From: Methylocystis echinoides
GTDB taxonomy: Bacteria > Pseudomonadota > Alphaproteobacteria > Rhizobiales > Beijerinckiaceae
Assembly (NCBI RefSeq): GCF_027923385.1
Contig: NZ_BSEC01000001.1
Location: forward strand, 3,446,001 to 3,510,000
Length of the DNA stretch: 64,000 nucleotides
Direction of reading: 5' to 3'
Shown here: positions 43,692-62,157 of the stretch, in pieces
How the letters are laid out: every line of letters starts with the position of its first letter
Numbering within the stretch: position 1 is the stretch's first letter
The notes under the pieces: generated by a model
Seen by the model: the letters and a program-made list of their open reading frames with translations, nothing else
Databases searched by the model: none
Told to the model about the DNA's origin: nothing
Translations under genes and position numbers: made by a program

Positions 43692-44084
43692 ATGCCAAAC
43701 GACACCTATAAGGCTCTAATCGAAAGTGTCGTAAAGGATCGCGCGAGAGAGCTAGGCCTCAACGAGTCACAAGCATTTGCTACCGTAGCGAACGCCCTAA
43801 TCCTTGAACCTTTCGATCTTAGTATCGACGAAATCGAAGCTGGCGACACGGACGGAAGCGGCGATGGCCAAATAGACGCACTGTATATCCTTGTGAATGG
43901 ACACACGCTCTCGGGTGAGGAAGGCGAAAAAATTCCGGAACGCGGCCCGTTAGAGATTGACATAATAATCATACAATCCAAAAACACAGACAGTTTTACT
44001 GAATCAACGTTAGCGATGTTCTGACCTCACCTTCCAAACGAGATCGACAGCTGCGAGTCTGATCTCCTGCAGGAGGTAAGGCTT

Positions 44085-44516
44085 GTGTCCAGACTTGATG
44101 ATCCGCTTGACCCTAAGGGCGAGACTGTCCAGCGCATTGAAGTAATCACGGGCGGCGGGGAGCGCCGTCGCCGATGGTCGGATGACGAGAAGGCGGAAGC
44201 CGTAGAGGAATCGCTGCAGCCTGGCATGGTTGTCTCGCAGGTTGCGCGTCGGCGGGGACTGACTCCGCAGCAATTGTTCACCTGGCGGCGCGAAGCACGC
44301 GAAAAGGCGGCGGCTTCCGATGGAGTTCCCTTCGCGCCGGTCGTTGTTGAACCGCGAGGGACAGCGTCGGCGGCGCTGCCGCCGGAGCGCAAGGCGGTTG
44401 CGGTCCGGCCGCATGTGATCGAACTCGATGTTGATGGCGCGAGCGTCTGGATCTGGCGCGACGCCGATCTTGACATGGTCACGGCCATTATCGACGTATT
44501 GAAAGCCCGGCCATGA
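44085..44516 (+). CDS. tnpA: IS66 TnpA accessory protein
   Basis: The 143-residue product has the TnpA HTH (RRRRWSDDEKAEAVEESLQPG, quoted in part, and RRRGLTPQQLFTWRREAR). GTG start after AGGAGGTAAG. It overlaps tnpB by 4 nt (ATGA). Confidence 0.88.
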   Translation: MSRLDDPLDPKGETVQRIEVITGGGERRRRWSDDEKAEAVEESLQPGMVVSQVARRRGLTPQQLFTWRREAREKAAASDGVPFAPVVVEPRGTASAALPPERKAVAVRPHVIELDVDGASVWIWRDADLDMVTAIIDVLKARP

Positions 44517-44881
44517 TCGGCCCGACTGGCGCGGTGCGCGTGATGGTGGCGACGAAGCCCGTGGACTTTCGCAAGGGCGCCGAAGGTCTCGCCGCCTTGG
44601 TGCGCGAAACAATGAGAGCGGACCCTTTCGACGGCGCCATCTACGTTTTCCGCGCCAAGCGCGCAGATCGGATCAAGTTGGTCTACTGGGACGGCACAGG
44701 CGTCTGCCTCTTCGCAAAGCGGCTGGAGGATGGCGAGTTTCGCTGGCCGAAGATCGAAGACGGAACGATGCGACTCTCCGCGACGCAGTTTTCGGCTCTG
44801 CTCGAGGGGCTCGATTGGCGGCGCGTGCATACGAAAGAGACTTCGGCGCCGGCATTGCCGGGATGTACCGCGACACAGTGA
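44513..44881 (+). CDS. tnpB: IS66 TnpB (Orf2-like) accessory protein
   Basis: The 122-residue protein contains MVATKPVDFRKGAEGLAALV and the KLVYWDGTGVCLFAKRLE block typical of IS66 TnpB. It is required with TnpA and TnpC for transposition in IS66-type elements. Its start overlaps tnpA. Confidence 0.92.
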   Translation: MIGPTGAVRVMVATKPVDFRKGAEGLAALVRETMRADPFDGAIYVFRAKRADRIKLVYWDGTGVCLFAKRLEDGEFRWPKIEDGTMRLSATQFSALLEGLDWRRVHTKETSAPALPGCTATQ

Positions 44882-44935
44882 ATCAGGGCGTCGAAGATCG
44901 TCGAAAGTCGGCAGAAAATATGGTCTTCTGCCCAC

Positions 44936-46468
44936 ATGGCGCAGGCGATCGAGAAACTTCCCGACGACCCGAACGAGCTGAAGGCGATGCTTCTCGCCGA
45001 GCGGGCGCGCAACGAGCGCCTCGTTCAGATCATCAAGGAGATGCAGCGCCATCGATTTGGGCGTCGCGCCGAGACGCTCCCCGAAGACCAGATGCTGCTC
45101 GCGCTCGAAGAGGTCGAGCAGACGGAAGCCGTCGCGGCCGCGGAAGCCGAAGCCGGCTCTGCCCCTGAGCGTGAGAAGGCGGCGAGAAAGCGTCGCACGA
45201 ACCGGGGCGCGTTGCCCCCACATCTCCCGCGCGTCGAGACCATCGTCGATATCGAGGACAAGGCGTGCCCCTGCTGCAGGAGCCTGTTGCACCAGATCGG
45301 CGAGGATGTTTCCGAGCGGCTCGATGTCGTTCCGGCGCAATTCCGGGTGCTCGTGACGCGCCGACCCAAATACGCCTGCCGGGCCTGTGAGGGCGCGGTG
45401 GTGCAGGCGTCTGCTCCGGCGCGGCTTATCGAGGGCGGCCTGCCGACCGAAGCGACGGTCGCCCATGTGCTCGTTTCCAAATATGCCGACCACCTTCCAC
45501 TTTACCGCCAGGCTCAGATCTACGCTCGGCAGGGGATTGCGCTCGATCGTTCGACGCTCGCCGACTGGGTCGGACGCGCCGCTTGGCACTTGCGGCCCCT
45601 GCACGAGCGCCTCCTGGAACACATCAGAGCGTCCACCAAAATCTTCGCCGATGAGACGAGGGCGCCGGTGCTCGACCCCGGACGGGGGCGCACCAAGACC
45701 GGCCAGCTCTGGGCTTACGCGAGGGATGATCGGCCATGGGGCGGCGCCGATCCGCCACTCGCCGTCTATGTCTATGCGCAAAATCGTAAATCCGAGCAGC
45801 CGCTCGCTCATCTCGCCGGCTTCGCGGGCGTCGTCCAGGTCGATGGCTACGCCGGCTATCGGGCGCTGGCGCAGAAGAACAGCGTGTCGCTCGCCTTCTG
45901 TTGGTCGCATGTCCGCCGGCGCTTTTACGAGCTGGCCGCAGCGGGACCCGCGCCGATCGCCAGCGAGGCGCTGGCGCGCATTGGCGCCCTCTACGCCGTC
46001 GAGAGCGACATCAGAGGTCAGAACCCGGATGACCGGCGCGCGGCACGGCAGGAAAAATCCCGCCCCATCCTCGACGTCCTCAAGCCATGGCTGCGCGAGA
46101 AACTCGCGCTCATCAGCCAAAAGACGAAACTTGCCGAAGCGATCCGCTATGCCCTGTCGCGCTGGGACGGTCTGACGCGCTTCCTCGACGACGGGCGCAT
46201 CGAGATCGACTCCAATATCGTCGAGCGTGCGATCCGCCCCATTGCGCTCAATCGTAAGAATGCGCTCTTCGCCGGCTCGGATGGCGGGGCCGAGAATTGG
46301 GCCGTCCTCGCCTCGCTCATCGAGACCTGTAAGCTCAATGGCGTCGATCCGCAGGCCTACATGGCCGATGTCCTCTTGAAGATCGTTAACGGCCACCTCG
46401 CGAGCAAGCTCGCCGAACTCATGCCGTGGGCCTACACGCCGCACCCCGACCTCAAAGACGTGTCCTGA
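44936..46468 (+). CDS. tnpC: IS66 transposase TnpC
   Basis: The 510-residue DDE transposase has a CxxC zinc motif (CPCCRSLLHQIGEDVSERL), a second CRAC, the FADETRAPVLDPG block with the first catalytic Asp, VQVDGYAGYRAL with the second, and the NIVERAIRPIALNRKNALF region with the Glu. It ends 13 bp before the right inverted repeat. It is intact. Confidence 0.93.
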   Translation: MAQAIEKLPDDPNELKAMLLAERARNERLVQIIKEMQRHRFGRRAETLPEDQMLLALEEVEQTEAVAAAEAEAGSAPEREKAARKRRTNRGALPPHLPRVETIVDIEDKACPCCRSLLHQIGEDVSERLDVVPAQFRVLVTRRPKYACRACEGAVVQASAPARLIEGGLPTEATVAHVLVSKYADHLPLYRQAQIYARQGIALDRSTLADWVGRAAWHLRPLHERLLEHIRASTKIFADETRAPVLDPGRGRTKTGQLWAYARDDRPWGGADPPLAVYVYAQNRKSEQPLAHLAGFAGVVQVDGYAGYRALAQKNSVSLAFCWSHVRRRFYELAAAGPAPIASEALARIGALYAVESDIRGQNPDDRRAARQEKSRPILDVLKPWLREKLALISQKTKLAEAIRYALSRWDGLTRFLDDGRIEIDSNIVERAIRPIALNRKNALFAGSDGGAENWAVLASLIETCKLNGVDPQAYMADVLLKIVNGHLASKLAELMPWAYTPHPDLKDVS

Positions 46469-48171
46469 AAACAGCGCTTACGAATCAACTCTCAGATCGA
46501 TAAGAACAACGATCTCAGACCTTGCTAAATTAGATCGCGACTACTCATCCTACTTAGCTCAATATAGCCAACCACTGCAGGATAAATTTGCTGTACTTCG
46601 CAGCGCCCTCCTATCATCAGCAGGCAGGACCGCAAAAATAAGAGCCCGCGTGTACTATGTCACAAAAGCAAGCACAAAAAACATTCACCCGACTGTATTA
46701 TCTACGGCCGAAGCTCTGAAGGATGACCTTTCCACAATTTCGACGACCCGAGATGTCGATACAATCTTTCTCGGAGCGGAAGAATTAATCGACTTAACTC
46801 GCGCTACAAAGACCAGAAGGCGCGAACTTGAAGTACAACAATCATTGTCGTCAGACAACGGCGACTCGTTCGCATGCCTCGTTACGATAGAAGCACTTGT
46901 GTCATTTTTGAGCGACGAAAATGGAAACTTAATAAGAGCCTTGTTCGATGCGAACGTCAGAGACTTCCTTGGAAAAGTAGGAGTTAACGACGCGATAAGA
47001 GCTACGCTTGAGTCTCTGGATCAGGACGAAAACTTCTGGTGGCTGAATAACGGCATCACGATCGTAGCATCCTCCATAGATCAAAAGGGTAAGAAGCTTG
47101 CTCTAAATGAGCCCCTCTTGGTGAATGGACTACAGACATCCAATGTTATTTTTGGGTTCATGACAGATACAAATGTTGATGAAGCTACGAAACAAAGCCG
47201 CCGCTCTCAGATTGTGTTGGTAAAAATAATTGTGCCGCCAAATGAGCAGATCCGGGATGATATCATTAAGGCCACGAACAACCAAACACATATCCCGGAG
47301 CCATATCTACGCGGTATGGATGTTGTCCATCGCAACATTGAAGACCATTTAAAGACATTCGGAATATTCTACGAACGGCGCAAAAATCAATATAAGAATC
47401 TCGGCAAAGAACGATCTACGATCGTCACTCTCGCAGAGATGGCGCAAGCAGTCATGGCTGCATTCCTTTTTCGTAGTGGCGATGCTCGCGGCCGCCCAAA
47501 CTCTCTGCTCAAAGCTGATTCAGATTATCTATCGTTGTTTTCCCCTGACTATCCGCTCGACTCTTTCAAAAACGTCATCGCAGCGAAGCGGGAAATAATG
47601 AAAATTCTTGCTGCAACATATCCTTCAGAGGGATCCCGCTTCCGGAACGACGTCGTCTACCACATATTGGCGTATATCAGCGCTAAACAATTCCATAACC
47701 TCGGCCATGCAACTTCCGGATGGAAAAGCTATACGATCAACGAGCCTGATCTAAAGGTGGACGTTCAAACCGTCGTCCAGATGTTCAAAACAGCGGGCGG
47801 CACGGATCAAGTCGCTAAATCAACATCGTTCCAAGATGACGTCCTGAAAGCAGCCGAAGCACTCCGAACGCGATAGCCAATCGTCAGATGCGACCCCATC
47901 TCAAGGAACCCATCTGGCTGTGCTGTCTATGTCGCGTCATTCTCCGGTCATCGTGCCGAATATTTCGGCCGCAATGCACGTAGTTCCCTAGAACTAAAGT
48001 GCGCTCTTCGCGCTTCCCGCGTAGCCCAACATCACAAAAATCATATTATGTGAGGTTGGGAACTAACCCACTGAGATCATTTGCTCTTTTTGCGCAGTCT
48101 CTTTGGTTGCTCTCTTGAACATCAGAAAACATGCTTGTTCCGAGCAAATTGTTAGCCAAGAGGAGCAAGCA

Positions 48172-48741
48172 GTGAAACAAGCGCCCGTCCTTACCGAACG
48201 CGACATGAAGCGAGTGCTACAGCACGTAGCCCGCGGCAGCTTCCCCGCTCGCAACCGATGCGCTCTCATGCTGAGCTGGCTTGCAGGTATGCGGGTAGCA
48301 GAAATAGCTGCGTTAAAGCTTAGCGATGTCTATGCTCCCGACGGAACGATCCGGGCCGAAATCCAGCTTGCCCCAGAGCAGACAAAAGGCAGCTCAGCCC
48401 GCACTGTTCTGATCAGCACTCAGCTGCGCAGCGAGCTGGAAGCCTACATAAAGACCTTGCCCGCTTCCCCTGCCCCCGATCGCCCCTTGATCGTATCCAA
48501 GACGGGCAAACGATTCTCGGCAAACGGCCTGTGTCAGGTGATGCTCCATATCTACGACGCTGCTGGACTCGATAGGGCCACGTCCCATTCGGGAAGACGC
48601 ACCTTCATAACCACGCTCGCCCACAAGGGCGTCAATGTCCGCGTCCTTGCCGCTCTGGCCGGCCACCGACACATAGGCACAACCCAACGCTATATCGACC
48701 TCAACGAAAACGTCCTACGAGCCGCCGTCGAGATGATCTAG
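48172..48741 (+). CDS. minimal tyrosine recombinase (catalytic domain only)
   Basis: The 189-residue protein from GTG 48172 (after AGGAG) contains the whole catalytic domain: Arg in GMRVAEIAAL, Lys in TKGSSARTV, SGRRTF (HxxR as HSGR), GHRHIGTTQRYI with the nucleophile Tyr. It lacks the N-terminal SAM-like DNA-binding domain of full integrases. A frame to TTG 48103 adds 23 residues without similarity. It may act as a catalytic partner to the 444-residue integrase next door, or be a remnant. Confidence 0.75.
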   Translation: MKQAPVLTERDMKRVLQHVARGSFPARNRCALMLSWLAGMRVAEIAALKLSDVYAPDGTIRAEIQLAPEQTKGSSARTVLISTQLRSELEAYIKTLPASPAPDRPLIVSKTGKRFSANGLCQVMLHIYDAAGLDRATSHSGRRTFITTLAHKGVNVRVLAALAGHRHIGTTQRYIDLNENVLRAAVEMI

Positions 48742-48814: not shown

Positions 48815-50149
48815 ATGGCGCATGCAGAGAACCAACAGGTCATCGCGAACGGTCAAATAACCCTCTACCTCCGCGATGACGTGAAGACGCCCCAGTGGCA
48901 ATGCCGGATCAAAATAAAGGGCCACTCTGGCTATGTGCGTAGGTCCACTGGTGAAACCGATCTCGACAGAGCCAAAGAAGTCGCACTGCAAATACTGGGG
49001 GAGCTGAACCAGAGGGTCACCCAGAACCTCCCCCTCAAACGCAAGACCTTCGCCGAGATCGCCGCTGCCTTCCTCAAGGACGCCGAGACACGCTGGAAGG
49101 AGGGCAGGAACAGCGAGGGACGCTATCGGATCCTCAAGGGTACGATCCAGCGCTACCTCATCCCCTACTTCGGCAACTGCGATATCACCCTCATCCAGAA
49201 GAAAGACCTGATGGCCTACCGGACATGGCGTCAGGCCTACTGGGTCACGGGACCGGGCTTTCAGGAAACGGGGAAAGCCAAAAAACCGCCCACCCAAGCC
49301 ACGCTCAAGCAAGAATGGACGGCCCTGCGCGGCGTTCTGCTCCATGGGGTTGATCTTGGCGTCGTCCCACAAAACTTGATCCCTGCCCTCAAACACGACA
49401 AGACAAAGATCAACAAGCGCCCCGCCTTCACGGCAGACGAATATCGGCAGCTCTGGCTCTTCATGCGGAAGTGGTGGCGGGCGTCATCCCATCCACGCAT
49501 ACGGAAGGACCGAGCGCTACTCCGAGACTACGTGCTGATCATGACGAACTCGGGTCTCCGGAAGGGGGAAGCCCGAAACATCAAATGGCGGGACGTCAAC
49601 ACTTACCGGAACCAACACGGCGATTGGGTGACGCTGACAGTGACGGGTAAGACGGGAGAGCGACTTGTTGTCTGCCAGCCGGGGACGGAACGGTATTTCA
49701 ACCGGCTTCGAAAGCGAGGCTATCGGACCGACCCTGACGACCTCGTATTCTGCCATGAGGACGGGCAGCCAATCGAGGAATGGATTGGCTTCTCCTCCCT
49801 TATCAAGGCGGCGGGATTGGAGAAGGACACGCACGGCAACAAGCGGACGATCTACAGCCTCCGACACACCTATGCGACTTTACGCTTGCAGAACGGTACG
49901 AACGTTTATTGGCTGAAGAAAAACATGGGCACGTCGGTCGCGATGATCGAGCGCCACTACGGCCAGACCAACGTACTTGTCGGCATTGAGCACGAAACAG
50001 CTAAACGTCCGAAAGTGCCTATACAAGCGCAAGGCACTTCGGCATCTACAAAGCCGGAAGCCATTGAGCAACAGATTAACGCGAACGAAATTGTTCCGAT
50101 CGGCGCAGTTGACGTAACTCCGTCCGAAGAAGGCGATGAGGAGGATTAA
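48815..50149 (+). CDS. phage-type tyrosine integrase
   Basis: The 444-residue protein has an N-terminal arm and SAM-like domain (residues ~1-200) and a catalytic domain with SGLRKGEARNIKW, the Lys in VTGKTGERLV, YSLRHTYATL and the Tyr in ERHYGQT. The usual third His is replaced in the KNMGTSV stretch, as in a common subfamily of Rhizobiales integrases. It most likely integrated the island. No attachment site can be fixed from the sequence. Confidence 0.85.
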   Translation: MAHAENQQVIANGQITLYLRDDVKTPQWQCRIKIKGHSGYVRRSTGETDLDRAKEVALQILGELNQRVTQNLPLKRKTFAEIAAAFLKDAETRWKEGRNSEGRYRILKGTIQRYLIPYFGNCDITLIQKKDLMAYRTWRQAYWVTGPGFQETGKAKKPPTQATLKQEWTALRGVLLHGVDLGVVPQNLIPALKHDKTKINKRPAFTADEYRQLWLFMRKWWRASSHPRIRKDRALLRDYVLIMTNSGLRKGEARNIKWRDVNTYRNQHGDWVTLTVTGKTGERLVVCQPGTERYFNRLRKRGYRTDPDDLVFCHEDGQPIEEWIGFSSLIKAAGLEKDTHGNKRTIYSLRHTYATLRLQNGTNVYWLKKNMGTSVAMIERHYGQTNVLVGIEHETAKRPKVPIQAQGTSASTKPEAIEQQINANEIVPIGAVDVTPSEEGDEED

Positions 50150-53313: not shown

Positions 53314-53919
53314 GTGGTTATTCAAGACAAGGACAAACAGGCAGAGGTAAATACCCCAAGGACATATTCATATTCAAAGGTTGGCTATTTTAATCCTACT
53401 TGGACGCCTCAGCTTGTTCAACTGACTGAGCAGATACAGGGTCATTACGCCCAATATTCAGATTTCGTTCAATATGCTGTGACGCTTCAGACAAAGCTCG
53501 TGACCAGACGGGACAACTTTAGACGAGAACAGCTGCTCATTCATCTTCAAGGTGACTTCTGGCATTTTAATAAAAGACTAAATTATCATTTCTTCAAAAA
53601 GAAATGTCACCGCAAGCCGCATCTATATTCCCTACTCATGCTCCCCGTCATCGAGGGCACGGCGTTCTCTCAAGATGGAAAACGAACACTTCACTACCAT
53701 ATCGGGCTTGGAAACGTCCCGAAGGAAGTGAACGAAACAGAACTCTGCAAGGTCATCAGACAGCATTGGCTTAAAACCAAGTTCGGCGCTGATGACATCG
53801 ACATTCAGCCTGCGGACCCAGGTTGGTCGGGATACATCACCAAGGAAGTGGAGAAAGGCAATGTTGAGTGCATTGATTGGCGTAATGCGTCCATTCCCCA
53901 CGAGGCCTTGCATATCTGA
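53314..53919 (+). CDS. HUH-endonuclease-like replication protein
   Basis: The 201-residue protein from GTG 53314 (strong Shine-Dalgarno AAGGAGATATATGC) has an HUH motif (RTLHYHIGL) followed by a Y-x-x-K motif (WSGYITKEVEKG). It is preceded by a YSLLMLPVIEG stretch like motif I. This is the motif order of rolling-circle/HUH Rep proteins, with one catalytic Tyr. GC is low, as in phage or plasmid genes. It may be a plasmid or inovirus-like relic. No helicase domain is visible. The call rests on short motifs. Confidence 0.55.
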   Translation: MVIQDKDKQAEVNTPRTYSYSKVGYFNPTWTPQLVQLTEQIQGHYAQYSDFVQYAVTLQTKLVTRRDNFRREQLLIHLQGDFWHFNKRLNYHFFKKKCHRKPHLYSLLMLPVIEGTAFSQDGKRTLHYHIGLGNVPKEVNETELCKVIRQHWLKTKFGADDIDIQPADPGWSGYITKEVEKGNVECIDWRNASIPHEALHI

Positions 53920-55587: not shown

Positions 55588-57069
55588 TCCACTTGAAATG
55601 GCCTCGGCGTCCGGGGGTTGATCGCCGATTTCCGTCACCCCCCCGTTCTCATTGTCATATGGCGCGAGCGACTCATATACTGAATGTAGAAAGTATTGAT
55701 CCGCTAGCTGAAAGACTGGTTAACTGACGAAACGCACCATTCAATGTAACCTTCGATAAATACAGGCATTTTTGTTTCACATTTACTTTTTATCAATTCC
55801 AAAATTAACCATATCTACCAATAATTAATTCCTCTTTAACCATACTATATTGCACATCGAAGCCAATGAACTGATCCTTAGCATCGTTGACAAACTGAAG
55901 GAGGTTTAACGATGTCTGCTGCCAATTCACGCAATAATCAGCCTCTCAACCCCGACGACCTGAACGGCTTCATCGAGAACGCACGCTCGTCCTTGAAGAC
56001 ATTAAAACAGAGTGCGTCGATCGCAACTGCAAACGCATATCTTCTCTGGTTGGATACGCAGGCGTTCTCCGCGACGAAGGAAGGAAAGGAGTGGATCAAG
56101 AAGGAGATCGACGCTCGAAACGCCGATATCAAGAAGCATAACGAGGATGTGAAGAAAGAGAAGAAGTACGTCACTGACTACAAAAATAACAATCTCTCGG
56201 AAGACGAGTTGGTCAACCAGACCGGCAAAACCAAGGAGCAGAAAGACGAGATCGCTGCCGAGAAAAAGCGTCTCGACGCCTTAGCTAAGAAAGACGACAA
56301 ATACTGGGACTCTCTCAAGCTCGTTCCCATCGAGCGGCGTGAAGGCGCGAGCGAGTTCACCGAGATCGTCAAATTCATCTTTGAATACGACAAGTCTGCA
56401 CATGCGGCCTCTGTGAACCGCTTCTGTTTGGCATTGGAATGGGTCCATGCTCGTTTCAAGGGCAAGACGGTCGAAGGGATTGAGGATGTCGTCACCGTGA
56501 TCGACGATGCCTGTGGCTTTGAGATTATCGTCGAGGAGCAGCGAAGGAATCGCAACGACGACGATCAGGCGCAGGTAGATCGCGAAATTATCGCTGAACG
56601 TAACTATGCCGACACTAAAGCAGCGCTCAAGGGCGCTGAGCCTCTCGCTTCCTTGGACATTGAGCCTCGTTTTGAGCTGGACGGCCTCGTGATTATGGTT
56701 GCTCGCTATGATGGCGGCAAGGCTCATGTCGTTGCAGAACTGCCCGCAGGCGATGGCGAATTCAAAAGGCTGATCAGCCGATATGAGAACCCGGAACTGT
56801 TGCCGGTATCCGATACGACGGAGTTCATCGGTCGGCTTATGGAGCTTGGTCAACTGGTCTCTGATGGCGAAGGATCGGGGGACAAGGACTCAAAAGAGAA
56901 AACCGAGCGGGTGCTCCTATCCGACGGAAAGAATGGAAAGCCAGAATTGGTCATCTCGGCCTGCAACGCCGATGCGGCTCTCATCGTCAAAGCGCGGCCC
57001 AAGACCGAAATCGACCTAGGCCTAACAGACGAGCCTCTGGTTATGAAAGAGCGCTGGCGCAAGCCGCTA

Positions 57070-58123
57070 GAGCGGTTTCTTGTCTGAATGAATCATTGGG
57101 GATTCCCGAATCGGGGCAGGTCTGATTCAAACTGACTGCTGGCGAAGGAGGCCGGCAGGCATGCCGAAGAAGACCCTTTCGCTCGATCTGCGTGAACGCG
57201 TTGTCGCCGCCGTCTCGAGTGGCCTGTCTCGCAGGCAGGCTGCGGAGCGCTTCGGCGTCTCCGCGGCAAGCGCGATCCGTTGGTGTCAAAGGCAGAAGGA
57301 GACCGGCACGCCGGCCTCCTACAAACGCGGTGGAGACCGCTGGTCGGCGCGCATCGATGCGCACAAGAGCCTGATCCTCTCGCTGGTCGAGGAAACCTGC
57401 GACATCACGCTGAAGGAGCTGCAGGCTCGGCTCGCCGAGCGTGGGCATGTTTTCAGCATCGGCTCGCTATGGCGCTTCTTTGACCGCCATGAGATCACCT
57501 GGAAAAAAAGACCGCCCATGCGAGCGAGCAAGATCGTCCGGATATCGTGAAGCGCCGAGAGGCGTGGTTTGATAGTCAGCTCGATCTGGACCCCGAGAAG
57601 CTCGTCTTCATCGACGAAACCTGGGCGAGCACGAATATGGCGCGAAAGAACGGCCGCGCCCCACGAGGCGAGCGATTGCGCGCCAGCGTTCCCCATGGCC
57701 ACTGGAAAACGACAACATTTATCGCTGGGTTGCGGCTTTCCGGATTGACCGCGCCGTTTGTTCTCGACGGCCCGATCAACGGCCTTTGGTTCCAGGCTTA
57801 TGTCGAGCAGGTTCTCGTGCCAACACTCTCGGCGGGTGACATCGTCGTGATGGACAACCTCGGGAGCCACAAGGCCGCAGGGGTGCGCGAGGCGATCGAG
57901 GAGGCCGGAGCGACGCTGCTCTACTTGCCGCCCTACAGCCCCGACTTCAACCCAATCGAGAAGGCCTTCTCGAAGCTCAAGGCCCTCCTGCGCAAAGCCG
58001 CCGAGCGAAGCGTCGATGCCCTGTGGAATAGGATCGGCGCCTTGCTCAATGAGTTCACCCCACAAGAATGCGCCAACTTTTTCACCGCCGCAGGCTATGA
58101 CCCTCTTTGAGAGGAAACCGCTC
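57070..58123 (+). mobile_element. IS630-family insertion sequence, 1,054 bp
   Basis: Terminal inverted repeats start GAGCGGTTTC at both ends, with TA target duplications at 57068-57069 and 58124-58125, as expected for IS630/Tc1-mariner elements. It carries one transposase split into two frames by a programmed shift. It disrupts the 602-residue gene. Confidence 0.95.
57161..58110 (+). CDS. IS630 transposase, two frames joined by -1 frameshift
   Basis: The first frame (57161-57550) has the HTH ([27 protein letters not shown], quoted in parts) and the second (57547-58110) the DDE catalytic region with [19 protein letters not shown] and the Glu in [11 protein letters not shown]. They join at the A7 run in TGGAAAAAAAGACC by a -1 shift, giving continuous [21 protein letters not shown]. 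Such slippage is established for IS630 members. The transposase is otherwise complete. Confidence 0.9.
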
Positions 58124-58847
58124 TAGAGAAGCACGTCAATAGCTATGAACGCCGTAGGCTGCTCGACTTCACCTATGATCTTTCGCCGATGCAAAAGGAC
58201 GGGAAGACCCGCGCCGAGGCTCGTATGGCGTGGGTCGCCTGCAATGCTGCTCTCAAAGAAAGGAACCGTAGCACCGCGACGAAGCAGTATTACTGGTATC
58301 CGGTGTCCAAGCTGGATAGCAGACCGCTTGAGCCAAGCCATTTTGAACCCAGCGTCCGCTTTACCTTGAAGCCCGACGAGGTTCGAACGGTCTACAAGGG
58401 GCCGCTGAAAGCATGGGAGGAGTCCAAGGACTCGGCCAAGACTTCCAAGCTCGTGTCTCTGAAAAATGACGGGGACCGCCTCCACCTGACGATCAAGGAG
58501 GGAGACTCAGTCAGTGTCGGCACGGAAAAAGCCGAAGGTCCCACGACGGTCGCTCGCTTCCGGCCTCGGGACACCGCCAATCTCTTTGGATTGCTCACTC
58601 AACAGCACGGCTCCGAGTATCGGTTCGAGCTGGACGAGACTGGTCTGCTGATGGTTGCTTGGGAGGATAAGTTCGCAGCCTATGAGGTCTATCTCCCGAC
58701 GGCGATGAAGGACGGACGGCTGGAAAGCCGTCGCGTCGCGCCCATGCGGATTGCTCTCCCGCAAGCTGCCGAGTAACGGCCGCGCCTACGGTAGGGAGGG
58801 CGGCCCCCTCCCTACCCTTCTTTCCCCTTCATTCTGGCAGGTGAGCC

Positions 58848-60149
58848 ATGAACCTTCACGCTCCTGAGGGCATGACGCCCTTTTACCCACAGGTCGCCAA
58901 TCATATCGAGGACGATCCCACGCCCAAGGATCAGGCCATTTATGTCCCTTCCGTTTCGCCGGGCTTTGCCGTTGATGTCTATGCAGGTCAGTGGAAACGC
59001 CCTCTCCCACAGGGTGTATCTGCCGAGGACCTGAATTTCCTCAAACCAGACAACGGGCTCTTTCGTATCAGCCACGCCATGAGTTCGGCGGGTCAAGCTC
59101 TAAACCAAACAAAGCCGTGCATTATCTCTCAAAGGGACTGGACCAAGACAATCATCATTGGCGATAGCGGAGGCTATCAGATTGCGTCAGGCCGGCTCAG
59201 GATTTCCGGGGATCGAGACCGCCACAAGATCCTTAACTGGCTCGAACGGACAGCAGACATTTCGATGACGCTCGATGTTCCAACGGGTCCGTGCCAAAAA
59301 CCAGGATACGCATTCAAAAATACGAAAGATTGCCTAGCAACAACGCTTGATCATCTGGATTTCTTTCAAAAGTACCGTACACCGGGAAAAATCCGGTTCC
59401 TGAATGTCTTGCAGGGAAACACCCAAAAGGAAGCGGATGCCTGGTATGACGCCGTAAAAATTTATGACTTCGAAGGATGGGCGTTTGCTGGCGTCCTACG
59501 GCACAATTTTTCTTGTCTCTGTCGGCGCATCATCGTCATGGCCGCTGAAGGTCAGCTTCAGAACAAGACATGGATACATGTACTCGGGACCAATGAACTC
59601 GAAACTGCTGTTCTGCTGACCGCCCTTCAGCGTTCCATAAATCGCCATATCAATCCCGATCTGCGAATTAGCTACGACACTTCAAGCCCATTTCGCTTGC
59701 TCACGTGGAAGACCATCTATTCCCACCCAAATTTCTCAGCGACCCGCATGTCCATGGCGACGGACACGATACCTACTGGCCACGAGCTAATTGGTAGTCC
59801 CATCCGATTTCCATGGCCGAGCCCACTTGGTGACCGCATGACACTTGGGGACATCGTCATCAAACCGGGCTCAAATGGGCTTTATCAGGACAATCAGAGT
59901 TATCACATGCTCGTTCACCACAATCTTGCCAGCCTTTGCTACGCTGTGGCGATGGCGAACCGTGTTTATGACAGCGAGTCTATCCAGCACAAACATACCT
60001 TGGCGACCACGGCAGGAGATGCGGTCGAAGAAATCGAGAAAGTGATTGCCTCGGGCTCAATGACCGCTCTTGCCAAAGCAAGCCGCGTATTTCAATCGCT
60101 GCGCCACGGCATTGCGCCGACGGCAGATGACGAAGAACGTGATTTTTGA
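58848..60149 (+). CDS. TGT-fold transglycosylase, DpdA-like (putative 7-deazaguanine DNA modification)
   Basis: The 433-residue protein has the tRNA-guanine transglycosylase active-site pattern: DSGGYQ at 106-111, TLDVPTG near 141, NVLQG at 186-190, GWAFAGV at 210-216, and YDTSSPFR at 276-283 with Asp277 as the likely nucleophile. The tRNA-TGT zinc site CxCxxC is missing, though a HHN resembling the zinc His remains near residue 357. This pattern fits DpdA, which inserts preQ0-type bases in DNA in the Dpd system and in some phages. No queuosine or other dpd genes are visible nearby. It probably formed an operon with the interrupted 602-residue gene. The DNA role is inferred. Confidence 0.68.
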   Translation: MNLHAPEGMTPFYPQVANHIEDDPTPKDQAIYVPSVSPGFAVDVYAGQWKRPLPQGVSAEDLNFLKPDNGLFRISHAMSSAGQALNQTKPCIISQRDWTKTIIIGDSGGYQIASGRLRISGDRDRHKILNWLERTADISMTLDVPTGPCQKPGYAFKNTKDCLATTLDHLDFFQKYRTPGKIRFLNVLQGNTQKEADAWYDAVKIYDFEGWAFAGVLRHNFSCLCRRIIVMAAEGQLQNKTWIHVLGTNELETAVLLTALQRSINRHINPDLRISYDTSSPFRLLTWKTIYSHPNFSATRMSMATDTIPTGHELIGSPIRFPWPSPLGDRMTLGDIVIKPGSNGLYQDNQSYHMLVHHNLASLCYAVAMANRVYDSESIQHKHTLATTAGDAVEEIEKVIASGSMTALAKASRVFQSLRHGIAPTADDEERDF

Positions 60150-60200
60150 GCGGTCGGTAGGGCATGGGTGCGCATCACATGATTAGCCGCTACTCATGCC

Positions 60201-61403
60201 CTACATCTTTCTCGTAGCCAGAGCGAGCGCAACGGATTTTGGATCGTAAACGTAATCGATGATCGTTCCCTCTTTAATTTTCTCAACAGCCTCATCAATG
60301 ATGAAGCGCGGCACCATGAACCACTCTTGCGGCACTACGGGCCTACCGAACCTGTCTTTAATCTCGATTTTAAGCTGAGCAGCTCCAAAGACCCTATGCA
60401 GAACGGTCTCAAGCTTGGTACGGTTCACGTTGAAAAGTTTGTAGGTCGCAACAACCTCAACATCAGCCATGAGAAATGTCGGCTGTAGTCGTGCCCCCGC
60501 GATGCGTTGTTCGACACTTAGATTTGTAACACCAATTTTGTGAACAAGATCACGGTTCGCTGCGACGAGCGGATGGTCCGATTTGCTGCGCAGGACATAA
60601 ATTGTGCCACTGGCTTGATCATCCTCTTCTTGCTGACCAGAGAAGAGCGGTCCAGCGCTAGGATCAGTGATTCGCCGGCTCGTCTTATCTCCATTTAATG
60701 CTCGCTGGAGAGAGCGCATGAGCATGCCGCTCTGTGTCCCATTGTCAAAAACAACCCGAAGCCGGGCATCCGTGCGTCCTTGCGGGGTAGTGAAGATTTC
60801 TCCTACCTCTACGACATACGCCTTTTGCCCGCCTAGAATGAACCAGCTGCCCGGTCGGATTTCAGCTTTCAGCTCAAACGGGCGAGTCTGACGTATCCCG
60901 GCGCTCAGTTCTTCCTGCATTTTCTTGAACAGCGGCTTGAACTGATCGAAATCAGGACATTTCTCACGGTTGGCGATTTCCTCGGCTTCCCGACGCTCGG
61001 TAGCCGATCGTACATGTCGAAGCTCGGATATTTCTGACGAGCCGTCACCCTCAACCCCCAGCTCGGCCAACAGAGCATCATCGTCAAGCTCTTCGGATGC
61101 AGGGGGCGAAGACTGCGCTCCTACCCCGGAAAGCAGGCCTTGATGGTCGAGAGGCGTCAGTAGGTCTCGGCAGTCTTGCTGCTCGCGCAGGCGATCAAGC
61201 CGTACGGCATAGAGCCGTTCAAAGATATCGCGGCCTTCCCCATGTTGCGGGACCCGACCATGCTTCTCATAGAAACGCTGAACTTCCTCGAACCCGGCAA
61301 TGATCCGTTCTTCTCGCGGCGTACGGCTGCCTTCACGCTTGGTTTCAGCTTCAACACCAAGCTCTTCAAGGAGGGCATCGTCCTCATCGGTAAATTTAGC
61401 CAC
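60201..61403 (-). CDS. GIY-YIG-like (T5orf172-type) protein
   Basis: The 400-residue protein carries a GIY-YIG-like motif near 270-295 (GTIYVLRS followed by VHKIGVTN) and downstream AGARLQPTFLMADVEVVATYKL and KLETVLHRVFG, as in T5orf172/Mug113 nuclease-like domains. The N-terminal half is helical with an ALLEELGVEAE-type repeat. It starts at a GTG overlapping the stop of the helicase stump by 8 nt (GTGGCTAA), so the two were translationally coupled. It is convergent with the TGT-fold gene. Catalytic competence is uncertain. Confidence 0.78.
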   Translation of the reverse strand: MAKFTDEDDALLEELGVEAETKREGSRTPREERIIAGFEEVQRFYEKHGRVPQHGEGRDIFERLYAVRLDRLREQQDCRDLLTPLDHQGLLSGVGAQSSPPASEELDDDALLAELGVEGDGSSEISELRHVRSATERREAEEIANREKCPDFDQFKPLFKKMQEELSAGIRQTRPFELKAEIRPGSWFILGGQKAYVVEVGEIFTTPQGRTDARLRVVFDNGTQSGMLMRSLQRALNGDKTSRRITDPSAGPLFSGQQEEDDQASGTIYVLRSKSDHPLVAANRDLVHKIGVTNLSVEQRIAGARLQPTFLMADVEVVATYKLFNVNRTKLETVLHRVFGAAQLKIEIKDRFGRPVVPQEWFMVPRFIIDEAVEKIKEGTIIDYVYDPKSVALALATRKM

Positions 61404-61921
61404 GAGCGGCCTCCGCCTTCATGCGGGCGAGGAATGCGACGCCCTCGGCCATCTTCCGCTCCCAAGCATCCGCAGACGTGATTGAGGGTAAACGGCCACG
61501 TTCCTGTTTGAATTTGAGGGCTCGCTTGGCTAGCTCGCGAGCTTCTTCAATCGATAACTTAACCTTTTTGGCGTTGATGGCCGCCTGTACTTCCTTGAGG
61601 CTTTCCTCGCTCATGGTCTTGGCAAGGATGGCATAGGCTTCCCCGAACGGATTGATCCGGTCGATCAGGTCAATGTCCAAATCCCGAACATCCATCGCGT
61701 ATTTTCGGACGCCGTCGATAAACGCAGTATTGGCAGTCTGCTCGTCACTGGACACACCCGTTGCTGCGGCTTCCTTAGCTTTCTGGGTCAGATTAAGGGC
61801 TGCGATAGCATGCTGCCGCACGGCCTCCTGATCTTCGTCATCGAGGCTCGGATATCGATCCTTGATGATCTTGCCCATGCGAACCTGAGTCAGCTCTTCA
61901 GGGACAAGCTCCGGATCAAAG
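61396..61921 (-). pseudogene. C-terminal stump of a probable DEAD/DEAH helicase
   Basis: Only ~175 C-terminal residues remain; the 5' part is cut off by IS66. The remnant (FDPELVPEELTQVRMGKIIK, DRINPFGEAYAILAKTM, LAKRALKFKQERGRLPSI) matches the tail seen in a family of island DEAD/DEAH helicases that travel with GIY-YIG genes; this match is from memory, not computed. No helicase motif lies in the remaining sequence. An apparent start in the IS is an artefact of the insertion. Confidence 0.6.
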
Positions 61922-62157
61922 GTAAGCGGTGCGACTGGGACACGTCGATCGGTTGTGGATGGCGTTACCTGTACAGTTGACCTGGGATGAGAGGAGTGGC
62001 GTTGTGCCTCATGAGGAGCGCCGCCGATGATGATCGAGGGTAAGCGGTGCGACTGGGACACGTCGATCGGTTGTGGATGGCGTTACCTGTACAGTTGACC
62101 TGGGATGAGAGGAGTGGCGTTGTGCCTCATGAGGAGCGCCGCCGATGATGATCGAGG
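61922..62157. repeat. 118-bp tandem duplication of an IS66 end
   Basis: Bases 61922-62039 and 62040-62157 are identical and both begin with the IS66 end GTAAGCGGTGCGACTGGG. The 8 bp before the second copy are GATCGAGG, the same 8 bp found at the end of each unit. This is best explained by one IS66 copy inserting 118 bp inside another identical one. Confidence 0.9.

Follow-up and report, generated by a model that had tools for sequence, protein, structure and literature searches.

DpdA of the 9g type is a DNA transglycosylase of the tRNA-guanine transglycosylase (TGT) superfamily, and how DpdA-type enzymes come to act on DNA rather than tRNA, and on a large part of a genome, is to our knowledge an open question. 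A further type, DpdA2, is encoded by the Vibrio phages nt-1 (YP_008125322) and KVP40, in which its gene lies between FolE and QueC or QueF; nt-1 phage DNA contains dPreQ0, as stated in passages of PMC6884629. The bacterial Dpd island of Salmonella Montevideo holds a TGT paralogue together with a preQ0 synthase, an ATPase, a PLD nuclease and a helicase (compare passages of PMC5567051). We analysed a stretch of 64,000 nucleotides (the window) from the 5.3 Mb genome of Methylocystis echinoides, in which a gene for a TGT-fold protein follows a gene that we call A. We consider it rather probable that the two (A-TGT) constitute a mobile, clamp-tethered DNA modification unit of two genes.

The TGT-fold transglycosylase (58848..60149, + strand) is DpdA2-like: it is predicted to adopt the TGT fold, and it has D106, D143, Q189 and D277 as in TGT active sites. 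The first three residues, assigned by alignment to the Z. mobilis TGT, are kept in 35 of 35 family members, and D277, which we take to be the nucleophile from the DpdA2 alignment, is kept in 34 of 35 (one gap). The family comprises 841 proteins at E ≤ 0.001 and has no Pfam model. At E ≤ 1 the protein was hit neither by the Pfam model PF01702, which gives 509.9 bits with the tRNA-TGT of the same genome, nor by the NCBIfam DpdA model NF041059. Comparison of the family with the KVP40 DpdA2 homologue gave a probability of 95.9 (E 6e-9) and with nt-1 DpdA2 of 74.5 (E 3e-5); the genome's own tRNA-TGT matched more poorly (45.5, E 2e-4). Similarity to the two DpdA2 proteins is remote, with the aligned motifs DSGG-Q, D, QGN/HGN, HxLG and ISYDxSS. 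The better match to DpdA2 and the phage relatives described below are in agreement with the original prediction of a DpdA-like enzyme. That prediction had also set the protein apart from tRNA-TGTs by the loss of the zinc cysteines. We rejected this loss as a DpdA hallmark, since the motif is likewise missing from the tRNA-TGT of this genome. In the latter protein, encoded in full elsewhere in the genome (L001), the CxCxxC zinc cysteines are lost and TQAN takes the place of the zinc histidine (EHN); EHN and CxCxxC are expected of a tRNA-TGT, in line with PDB-profile matches. The C-terminal tail of the TGT-fold protein was considered as a clamp-binding peptide, but tails of the 'DEERDF' type are confined to a close subfamily and missing from the wider set, and a clamp-binding tail is therefore not claimed. 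The solved Salmonella DpdA structure is PDB 7UI4 (passages of PMC12137116); it is not among the PDB matches listed for the TGT profile or model, and no direct comparison was made.

Gene A is present in two pieces. The first part (55912..57087, + strand) encodes a helical N-terminal domain and the start of the predicted sliding-clamp domain, and corresponds to residues 1-388 of an intact homologue at another locus (L012; profile positions 57-348). The second part (58147..58776, + strand) encodes the rest of the clamp domain and corresponds to residues 417-607 of the same homologue. Between them lies an IS630-type insertion (57067..58126, + strand; limits approximate, from terminal inverted repeats), into which the final codons of the first open frame read. 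Its transposase, recognised as IS630-type from the protein itself without a family search, is split over two frames (57161-57550 and 57547-58110). The predicted decay by IS630 is thus confirmed, and because A is interrupted, the A-TGT unit of this genome is probably inactive.

The partner gene had been described as a member of no recognised family; for the L012 homologue of A, a two-domain PCNA-type clamp fold is now predicted at residues 299-590. The comparison by VIA-align covered about residues 299-587 of A. In this fold A resembles the two-domain clamps of the PCNA, 9-1-1 and T4 types, but it differs from them by an extra helical N-terminal domain of about 245 residues, by a transglycosylase gene as its partner, and by its location in bacteria, whose own clamp is the three-domain DnaN. 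As the predicted template modelling (pTM) score of the L012 model is only 0.62, the placement of the N-terminal domain relative to the clamp domain is uncertain. The helical N-terminal domain recurs terminally in other proteins of 425-654 aa (L166, L168, L169 and L170, in the last as a split frame), whose genomes have no TGT hit. We also considered lone A clamps in TGT-less genomes, as 6 of 385 genomes of the class match the N-terminal part of the profile only. In four of these, re-examination showed the A-like stretch to be the end of a longer protein or a split frame, which is not evidence for lone clamps; the other two (G520, G440) gave no match on re-examination after gene picking.

A profile search detected an A partner at 51 of 55 bacterial TGT loci. 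The TGT family is patchily distributed, with members in 5 of 199 genomes of the host's family and 2 of 385 of its class, this genome being counted in both; the prevalence of 2/385 was too low for a co-occurrence test of A and TGT in the class sample. In three genomes there are two or three copies that differ from one another (L017/L021/L046, L010/L013 and L051/L057).

Relatives of the TGT-fold protein are also found in large phages, where tblastn gave 27 records at E ≤ 0.01, including weak hits in Pseudomonas putida phages and Sulfolobus viruses. IMG/VR holds at least 594 viral relatives, and we analysed the best 80 of these together with the phages PA5oct, Phosso and 2.275.O (83 loci). A protein of about 245 aa, which corresponds to phrog_12062, is encoded upstream of TGT in 79 of the 83 loci, at a median distance of 349 bp (range -73 to 3167). 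It was not found in Phosso (L066), L069, L123 and L143, the last two having no upstream DNA. The only viral matches of the bacterial A profile were four of these ~245-aa proteins (E 0.0025-0.011), and the profiles of A and of the phage family aligned over the clamp domain (E 1e-4, probability 56); no match resulted when A was compared directly with a single phage clamp or with the clamp of 9g. DNA polymerase genes lie near the viral TGT in 73 loci, a QueE-like family in 34, and a family read by eye as FolE in 46. In PA5oct a QueE-like gene is 2.8 kb away from the TGT relative, and in Vibrio phage 2.275.O the TGT relative is followed by QueF, a PF02592 transporter, a queuosine gene and FolE. 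Like these phage relatives, DpdA2 of nt-1 and KVP40 has 7-deazaguanine genes nearby. A glycosyltransferase-like family is located 3′ of TGT in 57 of the 83 viral loci (L069-L148, L065), and its PA5oct member matches a PHROG glycosyltransferase weakly; the phage base may be further glycosylated.

In phage 9g the gene of the proven DpdA directly adjoins an annotated replicative sliding-clamp gene, although this clamp is annotated as the DnaN type, matches the DnaN model weakly and is unlike A. Three of five further phages of the 9g type have an annotated DNA polymerase III beta subunit near DpdA, which is adjoining in Ssp-JY38, one gene on in MMDA13 and two small genes on in RHEph06; in BcepGomr, an unannotated gene of 327 aa takes the clamp's place, and the fifth, Bipper, shows no clamp. 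In passages of PMC10002423, PMC10893344, PMC7530934 and PMC12137116 a clamp is mentioned separately from DpdA, and the word 'clamp' is missing from PMC6884629, PMC5567051 and PMC11945000. The fold and active site of the TGT-fold protein are shared with tRNA enzymes, and two-domain clamp-like folds can act as scaffolds, so that the enzyme might modify tRNA or phage RNA with A as a scaffold rather than a DNA clamp. We regard this as very unlikely, considering that a full tRNA-TGT is already present in the genome and that DpdA-type enzymes have clamp partners in two phage lineages. A DNA transglycosylase guided by a clamp is the best reading, since the genome has the tRNA counterpart and the clamp pairing occurs both in bacteria and in phages with 7-deazaguanine genes. 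The pairing suggests that this marking is anchored to DNA or to DNA replication.

According to this model, the TGT-fold enzyme would swap guanine in DNA for a 7-deazaguanine precursor (preQ0 or preQ1). D277 would act on the sugar as nucleophile, and D106, D143 and Q189 would bind the incoming base that replaces guanine. The putative two-domain PCNA-like ring of A would keep the enzyme on DNA, probably on freshly replicated DNA, and the helical N-terminal domain probably joins the clamp to the enzyme. The precursor would be supplied by the queuosine pathway of the host. Whereas preQ0 genes adjoin DpdA2 in nt-1 and KVP40, no such genes were seen adjoining the bacterial A-TGT pairs. The co-occurrence with que genes that had been proposed as a check is seen in the phage relatives (near QueE, QueF and FolE), and in bacteria only elsewhere in the genome: among the hosts of 40 of the 55 loci, a QueC match of any strength is present in 38 and a strong one (E < 1e-39) in 34. 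The six hosts without a strong QueC match would suit another explanation, in which the enzyme repairs or removes damaged guanines at replication under guidance of the clamp and without any 7-deazaguanine; a clamp partner fits a replication-linked repair enzyme as well. We consider this improbable, as the phage relatives lie near QueE, QueF and FolE and nt-1 DNA has dPreQ0 (passages of PMC6884629).

Several observations weigh against a clamp-tethered DNA modification unit. The clamp was revealed by fold comparison alone: sequence searches of the PDB with the profiles of A and of the phage partner gave no clamp. The fold was predicted on the L012 homologue, which is about 30% identical to the A pieces of the window, and the pTM of that model is low, as given above. 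The A profile behind the 51 of 55 loci had been built up by iteration over these very loci, and among the 51 matches that of L028 is weak (E 0.017). In the viral sample, limited to the 80 best relatives out of at least 594, closely related phages weigh heavily. Of the phage partners, just 2 of 28 have a match to a named processivity-factor family (phrog_223, DNA polymerase processivity factor); in Sinorhizobium phage Phosso, the gene upstream is instead similar to a family of structural proteins, and the adjacency in phages may just reflect clustering of replication genes. No clamp is annotated in the 3-8 kb viewed around DpdA2 of nt-1 and KVP40, none was shown near the TGT of Mycobacterium phage Bipper, and 9g DpdA has no detectable sequence match to the TGT-fold family. 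Finally, we noticed no Que gene in the families that recur around the bacterial pairs, and six of the 40 hosts (those of L011, L014, L026, L037, L045 and L055) have no strong QueC match. In a sample of the class, a strong QueC match was found in 70 of 190 genomes; this sample, which is not matched for kinship and spreads over many groups with small genomes, is not a fair control.

The bacterial pairs are associated with mobile DNA. In up to 10 kb of DNA per locus, a short tyrosine recombinase was found near A-TGT at 27 of 55 loci and a small serine recombinase at 13. No locus has both, 40 have either and 15 have neither; the non-overlap has a p of 2.6e-5, with related loci not discounted. DUF6641-like genes occur at 32 of the 55 loci. 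Repeated palindromes are enriched 5′ of A (10/49 windows from 9 loci versus 32/676 for other genes, p 2e-4) and 3′ of the short recombinase (6/27 windows from 5 loci versus 29/667, p 0.0015), and were seen 3′ of TGT in 5/49 (p 0.075). In hand-picked patterns, L055 and L043 have the identical palindrome before A and after TGT, and in L049 and L050 a palindrome flanks a unit of 6.3-6.5 kb. In L045 (1221-9321), one palindrome of 19-21 bp occurs in seven copies among small genes, and a direct duplication holds two genes for short recombinases at a distance of 1.58 kb, each with the palindrome behind it; this region looks like a cassette array.

The exclusive recombinases, the enriched palindromes and the few loci in which palindromes bound the unit would also fit a role of the pair in service of its island. 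TGT would then mark recombination or replication sites, the clamp would bring it to the replication of the element, and base exchange would control excision, copying or inversion, not restriction. We judge this to be rather unlikely: 15 of the 55 loci have neither recombinase, most have no repeated palindrome, the sites could be operators, and the phage relatives belong to replication and 7-deazaguanine clusters. In the window, the scan for repeated palindromes found GC-rich, chance-like repeats only, and the site family carried by close relatives (TTGAGTnACTCAA) was not detected around the module. An extended form of the clamp-tethered modification model is plausible, though we put it forward tentatively. 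It holds that a DNA-modifying enzyme with its own clamp, tethered to replication, occurs both in phages and as an independent mobile unit of bacteria, that this arrangement extends to DpdAs of the 9g type, so that guidance by a clamp would be general for 7-deazaguanine modification of DNA, and that the bacterial cassette is bounded by palindromic recombination sites and carries a short tyrosine or serine recombinase.

The island that carries A-TGT in the window has the marks of a mobile integrative element: two tyrosine recombinases, patchy distribution, and a drop in GC content, from mostly 62-70% to 44-57%, over the stretch of about 46-62 kb. The borders of this island were not found, and palindromic ends were seen at some other loci only. 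The short tyrosine recombinase (48103..48741, + strand) is of the kind found beside A-TGT elsewhere and is 69% identical to that of L011; the second, long one follows at 48815..50149 (+ strand). A member of a small protein family (cluster 13; 53314..53919, + strand) is also found near A-TGT in L012, L030, L054 and L057. An AIPR (abortive infection) gene spanning 43692-47876 is split by IS66-type DNA into a part that matches PF10592 (46650-47876) and a 5′ part (43692-44024) without a Pfam match, assigned by position. The island further holds a MerT-like gene, with a match just under the cut-off, and a choloylglycine-hydrolase-type gene, and its far side (L064) contains genes related to the DUF6641 and DUF6876 clusters. 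Strand-biased circularizing elements and GInts likewise form islands with several tyrosine recombinases (passages of PMC10214605). Such an element was considered as the identity of the island and is unsupported. That study found no Tfp/Srap homologues in Alphaproteobacteria; the passages describe no transglycosylase or clamp, unlike the A-TGT island.

Convergent with A-TGT are genes for a GIY-YIG protein (60201..61403, - strand) and the C-terminal piece of a helicase (61396..61920, - strand), severed by IS66-type DNA. Its N-terminal part, a frame of 522 residues, is located past the IS66-type copy at about 65.05-66.62 kb in window numbering (L064:3053-4621), as is the gene for a protein of 963 aa that contains five MmeI domains. 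At its left end, the IS66-type DNA has a tandem duplication of about 118 bp (61921-62157), the copies starting at 61921 and 62039. The original prediction had joined these two genes with A and TGT into a four-gene module, and this convergent position is what speaks for a minimal Dpd-type restriction-modification system in which GIY-YIG and helicase cut unmodified DNA. We give this hardly any credence, as neither gene was found in the DNA covered at any of the 55 TGT loci, and the GIY-YIG family occurs on 224 plasmid records versus one for TGT. In the two plasmids viewed (L184, L185), GIY-YIG has an operon of its own, with a DNA methyltransferase, further genes, a helicase or pseudomurein-repeat protein and GIY-YIG in a row (helicase and repeat protein being named after the annotation of the plasmid homologues), and the larger clusters of A-TGT neighbours include no recurring nuclease family. 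The module thus shrinks to two genes, no restriction half was found, and GIY-YIG is the final gene of a separate operon, made up of an MmeI-like methyltransferase, a helicase with pseudomurein-type repeats and GIY-YIG (60201-61920 and L064:3053-7516, both - strand), which looks like a restriction system of its own.

Like the Salmonella system, A-TGT resides in genomic islands; its partner is a predicted clamp, and the Dpd partners (ATPase, helicase, PLD nuclease, preQ0 synthase) are absent among the scanned representatives of recurring neighbours. PADLOC hits of the window genes included no Dpd protein, the Dpd content of the library not having been checked. Among 110 scanned neighbour proteins, taken from 15 of the 55 loci and out of 189 counted, several match models of type I, II, IIG and III restriction-modification systems and helicases, which suggests, with less certainty than the modification itself, that the mark has a protective role in bacteria. 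Mobile islands would spread the clamp-tethered unit, many of them also equipped with restriction systems and with a recombinase of the short tyrosine or the serine type, and the likeliest benefit would be shielding of island and host DNA from restriction. If this is true, the partner clamp would answer both questions on DpdA, how the enzyme is targeted to DNA and how it modifies so much of it, and would place a Pfam-less enzyme family with a PCNA-like clamp in bacterial mobile islands beside restriction systems.

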